Part shown: piece after piece, positions 15,725 to 21,611 of the stretch | Layout of the letters: every line of letters starts with the position of its first letter | Numbering within the stretch: the stretch's first letter is position 1 | Origin: a virus | Reading direction: 5' to 3' (one strand) | Length of the DNA: 53,638 bases | Virus record (IMG/VR): IMGVR_UViG_3300023174_000219 | Location: 1 to 53,638 of that record | The notes under the pieces: model-generated | The model's input: the letters and a program-made list of their open reading frames with translations, nothing else | Database searches by the model: none | Told to the model about the DNA's origin: nothing | Made by a program: the position numbers and the translations under genes

Positions 15725-15922
15725 TTATTCCTCCCCGCTAAAATCTTTTATTCTGTTACGAATAATCCATACGATAAAACCTATCATTATGACTTTTCCA
15801 ATAACTACCTTTGCTGACCCTGTAAGAACTAGCCATCCAGCAAATAGACCGATTAGCGTGTATATCTCATCAATTATATCAGAGATAGTTCCCTTGATAA
15901 TTCTCCAAAGATTGTTAATCAT
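15725..15922 (-). CDS. Small membrane protein, 65 aa
   Basis: One or two TM segments (IYTLIGLFAGWLVLTG and VVIGKVIMIGFIVWII) and a short basic end. AAGGAGG is the ribosome site. Next to the holin-like gene and translated right after the 999-aa protein; could be a second holin component. Confidence 0.55.
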   Translation of the reverse strand: MINNLWRIIKGTISDIIDEIYTLIGLFAGWLVLTGSAKVVIGKVIMIGFIVWIIRNRIKDFSGEE

Positions 15923-18914
15923 TTCCGAACCTCCTTCTGAAAGCCACTATAGCTGCTGTAAGTACCAGCACCTTTTTAGCCTTCTTTCTTGTTACTGGAC
16001 TCATATCGTTTCCAATGTTAGCCATAGCAGCATATGCTGCCCCTACTGCCTGTATTGCCTCACCAGCGCCTGGAATGGCATCTAGGGCCGCTGGAAGAAA
16101 TGTACACTGCTCTATTGGGTGTTCATTACCATCTATATCTATATGAATTTCCTTATCGTTTCTAACTTCTGTTTTACATACGTATGTCATAAGTACTGGA
16201 ACCGCAATATCTGGTGAATTAAATGATGTTCCTCCAGGCTGTCCAATGAATGTATCTTGTGTTGTAATTGCTTCTGCAGGAATTGGAAGTCCAGATCCTG
16301 GAGGTGGAGGAGGAGGAGTTAATTTACCGTCTTCTCCTATAACTTGTGGAGCAGACTTTGTGCCAAAGAATTGAATTCCACCATTTTCAATACCTGGCTT
16401 ATCAACTTGAACTTTTGCAACTAAGTCTTGAGGATCTGGTAGCTTTGGCTTATCTGTTGGTAATTGATCTGGGTTATTTGACTTTACACCAATAGCATCT
16501 TCTAATTTCTTTGCTTCCGCCGCTTTTTCTGCAGCTATTTTAGATGCCTCTGCTTTAGCAGCATCTGATTTTGCTTGTGCATCTTTTGCTGCCTGAGCTG
16601 CCGCTTTTTCTTCTGCTAACTTGTTTGCTTGATCTTGTGCTTCTTTTGCTGCTGCATCCGCTGCTGCTTTATCCGCTGCTGCTTTATCCGCTGCTGCTTT
16701 ATCTGCTTCTGCCTGTGCAGCTGCTGCTGCTTCTGCAGCGGCTTTGTCTGCTTCTGCCTTTGCTGCAGCTTCGGCCTGTGCCTGTGCCTCTGCTTCTGCT
16801 TTTGCTGCAGCTTCCGCTGCTGCTTTATCTGCTTCTGCCTGTGCAGCTGCTGCTGCTTCTGCAGCGGCTTTGTCTGCTTCTGCCTTTGCTGCAGCTTCCG
16901 CTGCTGCTTTAGCTTCTGCTTCTGCTTTAGCCGCAGCTTCTGCGGCTACCTTAGCTTCCGCTTCTGCCTTTGCTGCAGCTTCCGCTGCTGCCTTAGCTTC
17001 TGCAGCGGCTTGAGCAGCTGCTTGTTCCGCTGCAGCTGCTGCTGCTTCTGCGGCTGCTTGTGCTGATGCAGCTGCAGCTGCCTGAGCTGCCGCTACTCTA
17101 GCAGACTCTTCTGCAGTTTTTTGTTCAATAATTGAAGTTAAATTAGATTGTATGCTTTCAATATTAGATGATTGTACAGTTACTGTTCCCACTGCTTGTG
17201 AGACTGCAACAAGGCTCTCTGTTTTTGTTTGCAATGTAGCTGTTGCTGTTTCTACTGTAGATGCATTAATAGCAAGGGTTGTGCTTGCTTGAGCCAATGT
17301 ATTAGAGGCTGAATTTAATGTGCTTGTCTGTAATGTAGTTTGTAATGGTCTTGGTGCAGTTACAGATACTGCATTATTAGCATTATTATTTGCCACCACA
17401 TTGGTTATGGCAGCATTTAATGTTGCAATTTGAGCATTGGCATTATCAATTGCTGTCTGAATTGCTGCTGTTGATGGATCTGGAGTAGGTGTAAAAGATG
17501 CACCCTGACTTAATGTTCCATTAAATCCAGGTCCTGAATTTGTATCTGCTATTGCAGTAACTGTGCCATTTGTGGTCTCTCTATAATTAAATCTTGCCCC
17601 ATTAGGAATTGGGCCAGTCACACTTACATCCGCCATCCAAGCACCATCTGCTGGATTAACATCAGCATTGAATCTAATTTGTGTCATTTGAGTTTCTGCG
17701 GTTGTAAGTGGATATACTCTAACATCCCACGCAACATTTAAAGTATTTGTAGTTGTTGAGTATGTAATACCAGATCCTGAAGACCAGGTGGTCCAGTCAT
17801 ATCCAGCAATAGAAATTGACGGGGCAGAAGGTGTTGAATAATAGTTTGATCCTTCATTAACTCCAAATGTTATTGTGCCGTTTGAACCAACATAGACATT
17901 TGTATAAACAGTATTTCCCATACGTAAATTAAATGGAAGATTCATTCTAACGCCAGCATCATCTACTCCAGCAAGTACGTTTGTTGATGCTCCAATTGTT
18001 GCTGCTAATGCATTAACCGCATCCTGAGCATTATTAATTGCAACGTTAGCTTCTGTTAATTGGGTTTGAGCATTTGTTCTAGCAGTAGATATTGCTGCTA
18101 CCGCAGTATTAGCATTTGTAATTGCTGTAGCAGTATTTGTTGCTGTAGCAGTAGCAGATTCAACTGCTGTATTTGCTGCAGTAATTGCAGTTTGAGCAGA
18201 CTCAACTGCTGTAGAAGCATTTGTAATTGTAGTATTTGCTGTTTCTATAGCTGCTTGAGCGGTTGCAACAGATGTCGATGCATCAGATACTACCTGTGAA
18301 ACTTGAGCAAGTGTGGTGGGGTCTGGATTTACTTGAGTTGCAACGCTAGAAATTATTGTAGCTGTAGAAGACTCAACTGCTGTTATCGCAGATGTAACTA
18401 CTGATTGAGCGGCATTTGCTGATTCTAATGTATTTGCATTTGTTACAGCAGTTTCTGCTGAATTTACTGCTTGAGTTGCTTGTGTAGCAGATTCAGTAAC
18501 TGTGGAGACTACTGGTGTTAAATTTGTAACTTGACTTACAGCAGTATTAACATTTGTTGTTGCTGTAGTTGCATCTGATACCGCAGTATTTGCTGTGGAC
18601 ACAGCTGTTGATGCTGCTTGAATTGCTGTATTTGCTGTTGCAACTGCAGTAGACTGTTGTTGAATAGCTGTGTTTGCTATTGCAACTGTTGCTGTTGCAG
18701 TATCTATTACTGCAGTTGTATTAATTGAAGCAGCAACAGCTTGGTTTACTTCAGATGTAGCTGTTGATAATGCTGTATTAACAGCCTGTTGTGCTGGGCT
18801 TACAACAACTTGTTCAACTGGTGCTGGATCATCTGCATACGCATAAGTTGGTCCAACAAAAAGCAACCAGCCCATAACAAATAGGCTGGCAAAAGTTAAT
18901 TTAATTCTAGTCAA
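15915..18914 (-). CDS. Large secreted Ala-rich protein with TolA-like helix, 999 aa
   Basis: TTG start at 18914 with GAGGAG nine bases upstream. Signal peptide (LTFASLFVMGWLLFVGPTYAY) is followed by about 300 residues of Ala/Thr/Val/Asn-rich heptad-like repeats, a beta domain at about 325-470 (MGNTVYTNVYVGSNGTITFG), a second repeat part, then about 180 residues of AEAAAKAEADK-type helix. The C-terminus has a Pro segment (PPPPPPGSGLP) and a hydrophobic stretch near VLVLTAAIVAF followed by RRR, like a membrane anchor. Possibly a wall-spanning surface protein or adhesin. Function unknown. Confidence 0.65.
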   Translation of the reverse strand: MTRIKLTFASLFVMGWLLFVGPTYAYADDPAPVEQVVVSPAQQAVNTALSTATSEVNQAVAASINTTAVIDTATATVAIANTAIQQQSTAVATANTAIQAASTAVSTANTAVSDATTATTNVNTAVSQVTNLTPVVSTVTESATQATQAVNSAETAVTNANTLESANAAQSVVTSAITAVESSTATIISSVATQVNPDPTTLAQVSQVVSDASTSVATAQAAIETANTTITNASTAVESAQTAITAANTAVESATATATNTATAITNANTAVAAISTARTNAQTQLTEANVAINNAQDAVNALAATIGASTNVLAGVDDAGVRMNLPFNLRMGNTVYTNVYVGSNGTITFGVNEGSNYYSTPSAPSISIAGYDWTTWSSGSGITYSTTTNTLNVAWDVRVYPLTTAETQMTQIRFNADVNPADGAWMADVSVTGPIPNGARFNYRETTNGTVTAIADTNSGPGFNGTLSQGASFTPTPDPSTAAIQTAIDNANAQIATLNAAITNVVANNNANNAVSVTAPRPLQTTLQTSTLNSASNTLAQASTTLAINASTVETATATLQTKTESLVAVSQAVGTVTVQSSNIESIQSNLTSIIEQKTAEESARVAAAQAAAAASAQAAAEAAAAAAEQAAAQAAAEAKAAAEAAAKAEAEAKVAAEAAAKAEAEAKAAAEAAAKAEADKAAAEAAAAAQAEADKAAAEAAAKAEAEAQAQAEAAAKAEADKAAAEAAAAAQAEADKAAADKAAADKAAADAAAKEAQDQANKLAEEKAAAQAAKDAQAKSDAAKAEASKIAAEKAAEAKKLEDAIGVKSNNPDQLPTDKPKLPDPQDLVAKVQVDKPGIENGGIQFFGTKSAPQVIGEDGKLTPPPPPPGSGLPIPAEAITTQDTFIGQPGGTSFNSPDIAVPVLMTYVCKTEVRNDKEIHIDIDGNEHPIEQCTFLPAALDAIPGAGEAIQAVGAAYAAMANIGNDMSPVTRKKAKKVLVLTAAIVAFRRRFGND

Positions 18915-18995: not shown

Positions 18996-19181
18996 CTATT
19001 TTGGGTTATCTGTTTTGTAAAAACCAGTACCGTTAAACTGTATTCCGAACGATCCGTAGTGTCTTGTAAGGTTTGCATTACACTTTTCACAGCCATAAGT
19101 TGGCTCATCTTCACTAATGCTACGCTCAAACTGTACAATGTCTTCTGGAGAACACTCACACTTATATTCGTAAATAGGCAT
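18996..19181 (-). CDS. FmdB-type zinc-ribbon protein, 61 aa
   Basis: MPIYEYKCECSPEDIVQFER, then YGCEKCNANLTRHYG: N-terminal MPxYEYxC and two Cys pairs are diagnostic of the FmdB putative regulatory family. The end FNGTGFYKTDNPK is also typical. Start shares one base with the nuclease stop. Role in phages unknown. Confidence 0.85.
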   Translation of the reverse strand: MPIYEYKCECSPEDIVQFERSISEDEPTYGCEKCNANLTRHYGSFGIQFNGTGFYKTDNPK

Positions 19182-19588
19182 TACTTACCGCTTTTCTTCC
19201 TCGCTTTTGCTAAGGCATCAAAGTCCTTGACCTTAGTATCTCCTAAATAACCCCATGCATATCCATCTTCAATCATCTTTTCATTCAATGATACTTTAGC
19301 ATCATCAAGGTAAACCCACCCTAAAATTCTTCCATACTTTTCTGAGCTGTCCATCTTTTCTGTCTTAATTACAACAGTCTTAGCAGCTTCAATTTCATGC
19401 TTCAGATAAGCTTTTGCCTCAAGCCCAAGAGCTTTCTCCATCTTATCTGCAGTTCTGCTTTCTGGTGTATCAATACCAGCTAAACGAACTCTAGAGCTAA
19501 ATGAGATATCAAATCCGAGATCAATATCTACATCAATTGTGTCTCCGTCCACAACTTTTGTAACCTTCTTTACATAATACTCAAACAT
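19181..19588 (-). CDS. Staphylococcal-type nuclease (thermonuclease), 135 aa
   Basis: KVVDGDTIDVDIDLGF, VRLAGIDTPESR and SEKYGRILGWVYL match the SNase fold, with catalytic Arg35, Glu43 and Arg87 present. Calcium-dependent DNA/RNA hydrolysis is the family activity. No signal peptide, so it would act in the cytoplasm, perhaps on host nucleic acids. ATG 19588 has AAGGAG four bases upstream. The frame is open for 16 more codons (ATG 19636) into the structured leader, but the conserved domain and ribosome site favour 19588. Confidence 0.88.
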   Translation of the reverse strand: MFEYYVKKVTKVVDGDTIDVDIDLGFDISFSSRVRLAGIDTPESRTADKMEKALGLEAKAYLKHEIEAAKTVVIKTEKMDSSEKYGRILGWVYLDDAKVSLNEKMIEDGYAWGYLGDTKVKDFDALAKARKKSGK

Positions 19589-19686
19589 GATTCTCCTTAA
19601 TATTAAGGAGCAGTTTATCGACATGCTCAGGTCCATCCTCGGGTAGCGCCCGAATGGTCTGCGACTCCCCAGTGACGGGGTGCAGA
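19589..19686 (-). ncRNA. Structured 5' leader of the nuclease gene (candidate cis-regulatory RNA)
   Basis: From the 5' end: TCTGC/GCAGA closing stem (19686-19682 with 19662-19658) enclosing CCCC/GGGG (19680-19677 with 19670-19667). Then CCAT/ATGG plus TCGGG/CCCGA (19657-19649 with 19643-19633, CC bulge). Then CTCCTT/AAGGAG (19610-19605 with 19598-19593), part of an 18-bp perfect palindrome, which hides the ribosome site AAGGAG. The arrangement of two upstream stems and an SD-sequestering hairpin is that of a translational switch. Ligand or signal unknown. Confidence 0.6.
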
Positions 19687-19691
19687 TCTTT

Positions 19692-19697
19692 ATTATA
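19692..19697 (-). promoter_or_regulatory. -10 element for the nuclease leader
   Basis: TATAAT (19697-19692) preceded by TAG; no good -35. It lies just beyond the Hsp20 stop codon, giving a leader of about 97 nt that begins with the first stem. Confidence 0.55.
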
Positions 19698-19701
19698 CTA
19701 T

Positions 19702-20121
19702 TTATTTTATCTTGATGGTCTTTGGCTTCTTTTCTTCAGGCACAATGCGCTCTACTAATACAGATAGCATACCATTCTTAAATTCAGCCGAAATTACTTC
19801 CATATACTCACCAAGCGCAAATGTGCGTGTGAATTTACGTGTAGCAATTCCCTTATGCAGTACTTCTTCTGTTGTTTCTGATCCAACTTCTCCCTTAATA
19901 ATCAGAGTTCCGTTATCTACAGATACATCTACGTCCTTCTTATCGAATCCAGCAACTGCTAGATCTACACGATACGAGTCTTCGTCAATCTTTACGATAT
20001 CGTAAGGTGGATATGATTGATGCACTGATGCATTATGAATTGAATTTAAGCGGTCCAATGTGTGATTGAAACCAATAAAAAATGGATCCTTAAAAAGATC
20101 CAATGTGTATGATGTTACCAT
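19702..20121 (-). CDS. hsp20: Hsp20/alpha-crystallin small heat-shock protein, 139 aa
   Basis: The alpha-crystallin domain spans about residues 45-130 with YRVDLAVAGFDKKDVDVSVD, GTLIIKGE, KFTRTFALGE and AEFKNGMLSVLV. The C-terminal KPKTIKIK carries the I-x-I anchor of the oligomer. ATP-independent chaperone that holds unfolding proteins. AAAGGAGAAATAAA precedes the ATG. Phage Hsp20 genes are known in cyanophages and related phages. Confidence 0.93.
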   Translation of the reverse strand: MVTSYTLDLFKDPFFIGFNHTLDRLNSIHNASVHQSYPPYDIVKIDEDSYRVDLAVAGFDKKDVDVSVDNGTLIIKGEVGSETTEEVLHKGIATRKFTRTFALGEYMEVISAEFKNGMLSVLVERIVPEEKKPKTIKIK

Positions 20122-20196: not shown

Positions 20197-20940
20197 TTAT
20201 AAAAACTTAATAAGTTCTGCCCAAGTTTTTGGACCAATAATTCCGTTTGAATCTACTAAGTCATGATTATCTTGGAATGCAATTACAGCCTTCTTTGTTG
20301 CTGGGCCGTAATCTCCGTCTGCAAGTAGTCCGAGTGCCTTCTGTACTACCTTAACTCCCTCACCCTTAGCGCCAGGCTTAATCTGTCCTGGGAATGCTGG
20401 TGCTTCTGGTGCTGGAACTTTTGCTGTTACGTCGTTACCCTTATAATTTGGGCGACCCCATCCAACAATTGAAACCATAACTTTCTTTTTATTAGACTTA
20501 TATGCACGAACCTGCTCACAAACTTCTCCACCATTACGCTGTGATCCAGATTTCTTTGAAGATGTATTACCTTCTAGTGCTGTTACTGTTCCGTCTCCGT
20601 TATCTTTTACGCAAATTCCAACATGGGAAATTCTATCGACACCATCTCCTGGAAAATCAAAATAAAGAATATCTCCTGGCTGAGGAGCTGTTCCATTATC
20701 TGCCTCAAACCATGTGCCCATCTTTTTAAATGCTGCTGCTCCTGCAACAGTTGAAACTGTATTTGGAACCTTTACTCCAGCCTGATTAGCGCACCACATT
20801 ACATAGCTTCCGCACCATGGCAAAAAGTTAGCCTTTGTAAATGCACCGTATTTTGTTTCATTATCCTTCGGGCCTTCAATAACCCCTACTTCTTTATATG
20901 CAACTTCAATTATAGCTGCAGCTGTTCCTTTATCTGCCAT
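20197..20940 (-). CDS. Endolysin: CHAP amidase/endopeptidase plus peptidoglycan-binding domain, 247 aa
   Basis: The CHAP domain is residues 1-155, with catalytic Cys43 (PWCGSYVMW), His106 (RISHVGICV) and Glu123/Asn125 (ALEGNTS). A linker PAPEAPAFPG joins to a PG_binding_1 domain (about 185-247: GEGVKVVQKALGLLADGDYG ... GIIGPKTWAELIKFL). It cuts peptide bonds in the host cell wall at lysis. No signal peptide, so a holin must release it. Strong AAAGGAGAATAAA ribosome site. Confidence 0.92.
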   Translation of the reverse strand: MADKGTAAAIIEVAYKEVGVIEGPKDNETKYGAFTKANFLPWCGSYVMWCANQAGVKVPNTVSTVAGAAAFKKMGTWFEADNGTAPQPGDILYFDFPGDGVDRISHVGICVKDNGDGTVTALEGNTSSKKSGSQRNGGEVCEQVRAYKSNKKKVMVSIVGWGRPNYKGNDVTAKVPAPEAPAFPGQIKPGAKGEGVKVVQKALGLLADGDYGPATKKAVIAFQDNHDLVDSNGIIGPKTWAELIKFL

Positions 20941-20941
20941 T

Positions 20942-21121
20942 TTATTCTCCTTTTAAAATTGATTTTTTAATTTTTTTATTATCCGCTTCAGATGCGTACA
21001 GTGCTCTCATGTGAGCAACTGCACGAGACTTGCTTGGATGGCACCCTACAAGCTCTCCTGTTTCTTTAACAACTGCGAATCCTTTACAGCCAGCAGCACC
21101 CTGCTTTACTTTCCAAGGCAT
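20942..21121 (-). CDS. Small conserved hypothetical protein, 59 aa
   Basis: MPWKVKQGAAGCKGFAVVKE... GCHPSKSRAVAHMRALYAS has a short two-stranded motif followed by an AxxHxxAL helix found in phage and actinobacterial capsid-linked or regulatory proteins. It sits between Dps and endolysin and shares junctions with both. Confidence 0.6.
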   Translation of the reverse strand: MPWKVKQGAAGCKGFAVVKETGELVGCHPSKSRAVAHMRALYASEADNKKIKKSILKGE

Positions 21122-21576
21122 TAGAAATTCACCATGCTTTTAAGAGATGCTGTAATTTTCCATCTCCATTTTTCATGAGATGTAATTCTATCTGCAAAGA
21201 AGTTTGCAACTCCCTGCTCGTTTGCATCATTTGCAATTATAAATCCAGCCTTTAAATCTGTAATAATTTGCTCATTAGAAGAAAGCAATGACTGAAGCAT
21301 CTCAATAGGGCTTGTTACATTCATATCTAAATCATACTTAACATTAGATGTCTCATAAATCTTTACTGTATCAAACTCTGCCTTCCCGCCAAAAGATCTG
21401 ATCCATTCTGCAAACGTATCCACGGCTCCGTCTGCATCCTCGTAGATTTCCCCAAACATCTCATGAAACTGATCAAACAAGATGCCTTCCACATTCCAGT
21501 GGTATCCGTGTGCCTTTGTCCCATAAATAAATGAATTTGACTGAAGTACTCTTAGTGCTTGAATTAAAGATTCCAT
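21121..21576 (-). CDS. dps: Dps-family ferritin-like protein, 151 aa
   Basis: KAHGYHWNVEG at residues 21-31 and the D-x3-E segment of AVDTFAEWIR contain the full ferroxidase set His26, His38, Asp53, Glu57 with the same spacing as bacterial Dps (12, 15 and 4). Dps forms a 12-mer that oxidises and stores iron and protects DNA. ATG 21576 with GGGGG upstream is chosen; the frame extends to 21603 but lacks a ribosome site. Its short N-terminus lacks the Lys-rich DNA-binding tail of E. coli Dps. Confidence 0.88.
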   Translation of the reverse strand: MESLIQALRVLQSNSFIYGTKAHGYHWNVEGILFDQFHEMFGEIYEDADGAVDTFAEWIRSFGGKAEFDTVKIYETSNVKYDLDMNVTSPIEMLQSLLSSNEQIITDLKAGFIIANDANEQGVANFFADRITSHEKWRWKITASLKSMVNF

Positions 21577-21602
21577 TTGTCCCCCTAAAATTATATATAT
21601 CA

Positions 21603-21611
21603 ATTATAGCA
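21603..21611 (-). promoter_or_regulatory. Extended -10 promoter for dps
   Basis: TGC-TATAAT (21611-21603), between tRNA-Arg and the dps start. Confidence 0.5.

Follow-up and report, generated by a model that had tools for sequence, protein, structure and literature searches.

A small covarying RNA pseudoknot in phages of distant hosts as a possible boundary mark between RNA units

The leader analysed here lies in a 53,638-nt window, i.e. the whole stretch of viral DNA under study, between an hsp20 gene upstream (19702–20121; Pfam HSP20, 3.8e-19) and a gene for a 135-aa SNase-family nuclease downstream (19181–19588; Pfam SNase, 7.8e-18; ATG at 19588–19586), with all three on the minus strand. 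On the same strand, the SNase gene is followed by an FmdB-like zinc-ribbon gene (18996–19181), whose match stays below the Pfam cutoff, and further on by a gene for an alanine-rich repetitive protein of 999 aa without Pfam match (15915–18914), while on the other side of hsp20 a CHAP and peptidoglycan-binding protein, likely the endolysin (20197–20940), and a ferritin/Dps-like protein (21121–21603; Pfam Ferritin, 1.8e-19) are encoded in this phage. Ahead of the leader, a -10-like TATAAT at 19697–19692, within a TAGTATAAT box (19692–19700, minus strand) that is kept in the phage group, constitutes the predicted promoter -10 region and places the predicted transcription start at about 19685. This gives, as a prediction, the leader length of 97 nt that a preliminary description of the locus had claimed. 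The two upstream stems named there, one of them GC-rich, are both present. D1 (19658–19686, minus strand) is a 5'-terminal hairpin, CUGCACCCCGUCACUGGGGAGUCGCAG, which folds as UCUGC-A-CCCC-GUCACU-GGGG-AGUC-GCAGA with an inner CCCC/GGGG helix and is nearly invariant in the phage group. D2 (19633–19657, minus strand), recognised from the fold and from relatives, is an optional hairpin of the form CCAU-UCGGG-CGCUA-CCCGA-GG-AUGG. Compared to shuffled sequences, the fold of the complete leader shows a moderate gain in stability on the minus strand (-38.3 vs -30.6, z -2.1, 2/200), and the plus strand gives a z of -2.6.

What the preliminary description had missed is an H-type pseudoknot of 26 nt at 19608–19633 (minus strand), which emerges from the sequence, a pattern scan and the covariation of its helices P1 and P2. 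P1 pairs GAC (19633–19631) with GUC (19622–19620) and P2 pairs GAGCA (19628–19624) with UGCUC (19612–19608), and the helices are connected by the loops L1 (CU, 19630–19629), L2 (U, 19623) and L3 (GAUAAAC, 19619–19613). The consensus reads GAC-CU-GAGCA-U-GUC-nnnnAAAC-UGCUC; elsewhere, P1 reaches up to 6 bp, 1–2 nt separate P2 from the second P1 strand, and the A-rich loop ends in AAAC. The outer pair of D2 and P1 compete for base 19633. In the pattern scan, the window holds a single copy of the knot. Among 80 viral contigs with close relatives of the nuclease, many leaders keep the knot block, and where it is missing the nuclease gene is located elsewhere.

The search pattern left P1 free except for its C–G closing pair and also left the two outer pairs of P2 free. 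A complete scan of the viral contigs with this free-pair pattern returned 102 stretches. P1 attained at least 3 bp in 55 of the 71 distinct matches, and nearly all of these 55 retained both free P2 pairs, which took the forms GA/TC, GG/CC, AA/TT, AG/CT, CA/TG and G–U. From a non-redundant set of 54 copies, for which relatives were removed by flank identity, we analysed 45 alignment columns, and the four highest APC-corrected mutual-information pairs were -3/10 and -2/9, both in P1, and 3/22 and 2/23, both in P2. Paired cells amounted to 89.7% vs 74.9% in shuffled data, and to 22–36% when the pairing was slid; the covariation score of 0.392 (0.143 shuffled) was reached by none of 500 shuffles. 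A P1 of at least 3 bp was found in 60 of 73 copies in the set with P1 wholly free (control 14, maximum 21) and in 43 of 54 in the non-redundant set (control 11.5, maximum 19). The two interleaved helices with their covariation identify the element as an H-type pseudoknot, and the covariation rules out that the knot arose by chance. We also rejected a DNA operator or promoter element, since the P1 strands vary yet stay complementary, which points to RNA. The earlier reading of the leader as a structured RNA is borne out in so far as the structure is real, conserved and subject to compensatory changes across relatives, which reside in P1 and P2; its second half, a riboswitch or thermometer for the nuclease gene, found no support. 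The outer P2 pairs are GA/TC in 28 of the 54 copies, and the sequences of P2 and the loops are kept beyond the needs of pairing, which hints at a specific partner.

The exact common form of the knot has at least 120 matches in viral contigs, and its carriers comprise phages of Bacteroidota, Bacillota, Actinomycetota, Alpha- and Gammaproteobacteria and Cyanobacteria. Searching named phage isolates by blastn, we found variants of it in phages of Lactobacillus, Staphylococcus, Roseobacter, Lentibacter, Rhizobium and Vibrio, and further carriers are Cellulosimicrobium and Cylindrospermopsis phages, a Christensenellales phage and crAss-like phages. The weak blastn matches of the leader in unrelated phages consist mostly of the knot block, in regions that are non-coding by annotation in most records. 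Single contigs can harbour multiple copies that differ in P1, as many as six in one contig of 14 kb, and crAss cr7_1 carries two tandem copies that differ in both P1 and P2. In cellular genomes (257 Gb, 85,000 genomes), a similar pattern gave 36 matches, mostly chance, of which 2–3 have a P1. Two copies that look real precede ArdC-like anti-restriction genes and thus possibly belong to mobile elements; plasmids yielded two weak knot matches only. We regard the fold of the knot and its spread over unrelated phages as practically certain. The phage-specific spread across hosts and the tandem copies of crAss cr7_1 are also what might be expected from an RNA decoy or antitoxin mimic with which phages would counter RNA-binding toxins of the host (type III ToxN/CptN, AbiF-like), given that the antitoxins of ToxIN-type systems fold as compact pseudoknots (PMC12373285). 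However, no Rfam antitoxin matches even at E 10, a decoy would have no need for strict placement at gene ends, and, where type III antitoxins combine a toxin gene with repeats, no toxin family was found among the scanned neighbours and the copies are mostly single, so that we consider a decoy very improbable.

Within the phage group of the window, 144 of 145 D1 copies have the pseudoknot behind them, ahead of SNase, FmdB and other genes, and in other contigs an FmdB-like gene lies directly 3' of the D1–knot leader. In related contigs the nearly invariant D1 stands behind the TAGTATAAT box and is possibly part of a small RNA. D2 is absent from relatives or swapped for another module, GUCGGGGGAGACAGCGACNUUAAAUAACUG. 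This module, of which we found 10 distinct copies over several contigs, is located between D1 and the knot and resembles another compact pseudoknot, formed by GUCG/CGAC together with CAG/CUG. By inspection, two contigs apparently have no same-strand coding gene 3' of the D1–knot unit, and in two others another promoter-like sequence follows immediately 3'. These cases, together with the tight succession of D1 and knot, could be understood if the knot marked a site of RNA processing or the terminus of small RNAs, such as the promoter–D1–D2–pseudoknot unit, and did not protect messages as such. D1 is, however, seen in this phage group only and the majority of knot copies occur without a preceding D1, and we judge this explanation improbable. 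In three related contigs, promoter, D1 and D2 are all missing and the knot is placed directly between the hsp20 stop and the SNase Shine-Dalgarno (SD) sequence, starting 6–9 nt past the stop codon.

In the window, the SD sequence AAGGAG of the SNase gene (19593–19598, minus strand) is situated 4 nt before the ATG and constitutes, as described earlier, the 3' arm of the palindrome CTCCTTAATATTAAGGAG (19593–19610, minus strand), which can fold into a hairpin able to hide it. The palindrome is exact, but its size had been overstated: it spans 18 nt with 9-nt arms and forms an RNA hairpin of 7 bp (-8.3 kcal/mol), not 18 bp. Because its 5' arm shares 19608–19610 with the 3' strand of P2, the SD hairpin and the pseudoknot are mutually exclusive in the window. 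A switch could be built on this exclusivity, in which the SD of the SNase gene would be accessible in the pseudoknot form and masked in the palindrome form, the choice being made by ligand or temperature; moreover, GGGCAG beside the SD of Cellulosimicrobium phage DS1 is a possible pairing partner of the P2 strand CUGCCC. Among 67 distinct related leaders, however, a strong SD hairpin (-5 kcal/mol or lower) is present in 26 only and the hairpin has -1.8 kcal/mol or weaker in 28, with a mean of -3.5 vs -2.7 for shuffled linkers, and several knot copies have no coding gene nearby downstream. We hold such a switch for the SNase gene to be improbable. Compensatory changes are not the rule for the palindrome, as relatives mostly just lose its pairs. 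The SD-hiding hairpin is lineage-specific and not a conserved part of the leader, and the proposal that the leader serves to hide the nuclease SD finds no support, since the conserved fold leaves the SD free. For the subset of leaders retaining the palindrome, a local on/off switch is possible, judging from the pairing potential. An RNA thermometer is characterised by a conserved SD-hiding hairpin, which the 26 strong cases do not amount to, and a riboswitch by an aptamer in 5' leaders of one pathway, while the targets here comprise genes unrelated to one another, tRNAs and 3' UTRs set apart by a promoter. A riboswitch or thermometer specific to one gene would not be expected to precede tRNAs, promoters, a terminator and dozens of other, unrelated genes, as the knot does, and a ligand riboswitch or thermometer dedicated to the nuclease is unlikely.

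The gap between stop codon and P1 of the knot measures 4–7 nt in 31 of 69 non-redundant upstream genes and is never below 4 nt, a position just past stop codons as in REP-like 3' stabilisers. This is roughly the point beyond which a terminating ribosome no longer covers the mRNA. On the other side, the end of the knot is separated from the start codon by at least 10 nt, mostly 17–40 nt, in 57 non-redundant downstream genes, which leaves the downstream SD free; start-proximal copies are found 15–30 nt before start codons. A tRNA is the next feature for about 20 of 257 knot copies, mostly at a distance of 3–10 nt. Consensus promoters 3' of the 97 stop-proximal copies were detected in 5 cases with at most one mismatch (0.3 expected from shuffles) and in 10 with at most two (3.3 expected), and a looser scan with 3 mismatches showed no significant excess (25 vs 19.5). 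In one contig a TTGACA-N17-TATAAT promoter follows the knot, and in another a terminator stands right behind it. Upstream families recur in divergent members, namely ribonucleotide reductase, DUF932 and Hsp20 (three times each), with varied downstream neighbours; downstream, FmdB recurs three times and scaffold and ArdC twice each. With families recurring on both sides, the knot may be linked to the upstream or to the downstream gene, and the orientation of neighbours does not separate 3'-UTR from 5'-UTR roles, as short antisense ORFs confound it. A DUF932 gene (phrog_1221) or a look-alike precedes the knot in four contigs, among them the one with six copies, and also in two more, and in several of these a phage tRNA-Asp comes after the knot. 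A readthrough or frameshift signal was discarded, as only 9 of 206 cases show a long frame running across the knot.

The common denominator of these contexts would be the boundary of an RNA unit, with the knot folded just outside the sequence covered by ribosomes. We tentatively propose a model in which the knot is a small, self-sufficient boundary mark that many tailed phages set between RNA units and that acts as a mechanical roadblock, an explanation that we put forward as the best available one while giving it somewhat less than even odds. The knot would remain folded beside a terminating ribosome and halt processive enzymes, above all 3'-to-5' exonucleases after cuts by endonucleases or RNase P, so that the upstream message would outlive the downstream part. 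The upstream products are often ones expected to be abundant, such as Hsp20, ribonucleotide reductase, major capsid protein or ssDNA annealing protein. In the SNase leader, the knot would then terminate both the hsp20 message and a short promoter–D1–D2 RNA, and the SD palindrome would contribute no more than a braking of the nuclease in particular lineages. By extension, and with slightly more reserve, the 26-nt boundary knot may represent an unnamed class of phage RNA in tailed phages of at least five bacterial phyla, which would shield messages and tRNAs against the ribonucleases or ribosomes of the host.

Some observations do not fit a roadblock well. Copies of the D1 group belong to a 5' leader that has a promoter of its own, and those of Lactobacillus phages are found after a terminator-like hairpin and before a scaffold gene; in both situations protection of an upstream 3' end explains little. 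The conservation of P2 and loops beyond pairing and the recurrent downstream families point in the same direction. Given this conservation, the main rival is a protein that binds the knot specifically. The knot would be recognised by a bacterial factor that is itself conserved (ribosomal protein, RNase, RNA polymerase or Rho) or by a phage protein, which, as gp32 does at the T4 gene 32 knot, would regulate translation, processing or antitermination of a neighbouring gene. Besides P2, it is the loop CU and the AAAC stretch whose conservation exceeds pairing needs, and the start-proximal copies are positioned suitably for such an operator. Since the knot occurs in phages of many host phyla, any partner would have to be conserved. 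The position of the knot before tRNA genes, promoters and a terminator, as well as the many copies per genome before unrelated genes, nevertheless speak against an operator, which we consider rather unlikely, if less so than the decoy, switch and processing explanations.

A tiny covarying RNA that is common to phages of distant hosts and nearly absent from cells suggests a general need of phages that their hosts lack. If the roadblock model is true, the knot would provide a compact, host-independent means of setting different protein levels from one transcript and thereby a tool for operon engineering, and if a conserved host factor reads the knot, a new contact point between phage and host would be at hand. 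In both cases, an RNA family that is not yet listed becomes open to searches and to tests in phages that can be cultured, for example Lactobacillus phig1e, Staphylococcus StB12 and Roseobacter SIO1.

While the H-type pseudoknot is a known fold, the phage knot has no Rfam family, nor did we find a description of it in the open-access literature searched. Rfam 15 gave no match to the leader at gathering score, nothing credible at E values up to 10 and no known ribozyme, in agreement with the preliminary description, which had not assigned a named class; in the open-access papers searched, neither a description of such an element nor its motif sequences turned up. The only weak Rfam alignment over the leader, to nhaA-II RNA (RF03038), reaches 13.6 bits vs a gathering score of 70.4 (E 4.4) and was dismissed as chance, and a resemblance between D1 and the beginning of the Mn2+ riboswitch is at chance level. 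The closest phage counterpart known is the T4 gene 32 pseudoknot, which a review describes as perhaps the only one of viral origin to serve translational autoregulation (PMC3014915). Like the phage knot, the gene 32 pseudoknot of T4, T2 and RB69 is of the H-type and resides in a phage mRNA leader, but it is confined to one gene of T-even phages, that of the ssDNA-binding protein, where it is accompanied by A+U-rich repeats and located 67 nt ahead of the start, whereas our knot precedes diverse, unrelated genes and tRNAs and is found at 3' ends. Theta (HDV-like) ribozymes of gut phages are self-cleaving and reside at tRNA 3' ends (PMC10879173). They share with our knot that a small phage RNA adjoins tRNA genes, while our knot is placed 5' of tRNAs, and the majority of its copies have no link to a tRNA. 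Type III antitoxin RNAs (ToxI, CptI) and the abiF motif (RF03085) are likewise short pseudoknots or structured RNAs, sometimes repeated and phage-related; RNAs of the ToxI/CptI type are linked to a toxin gene in arrays, and our knot has no sequence match to them. PreQ1-I and other compact H-type riboswitches have an A-rich third loop and their second helix near the SD. Our knot has topology, small size, the A-rich third loop and the location of the second helix close to the SD in common with preQ1-I and differs from it in the lack of an Rfam match, in its loop sequences and in its targets, which share no pathway and in many cases are not controlled through an SD. REP/BIME elements and RNase III hairpins are intergenic, located past stop codons and thought to shield mRNA from 3'-to-5' exonucleases, and they are hairpins of bacterial chromosomes or T7-like phages. 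Our knot is, in contrast, a 26-nt pseudoknot found in phages, and what it has in common with these elements is the intergenic position after stop codons.
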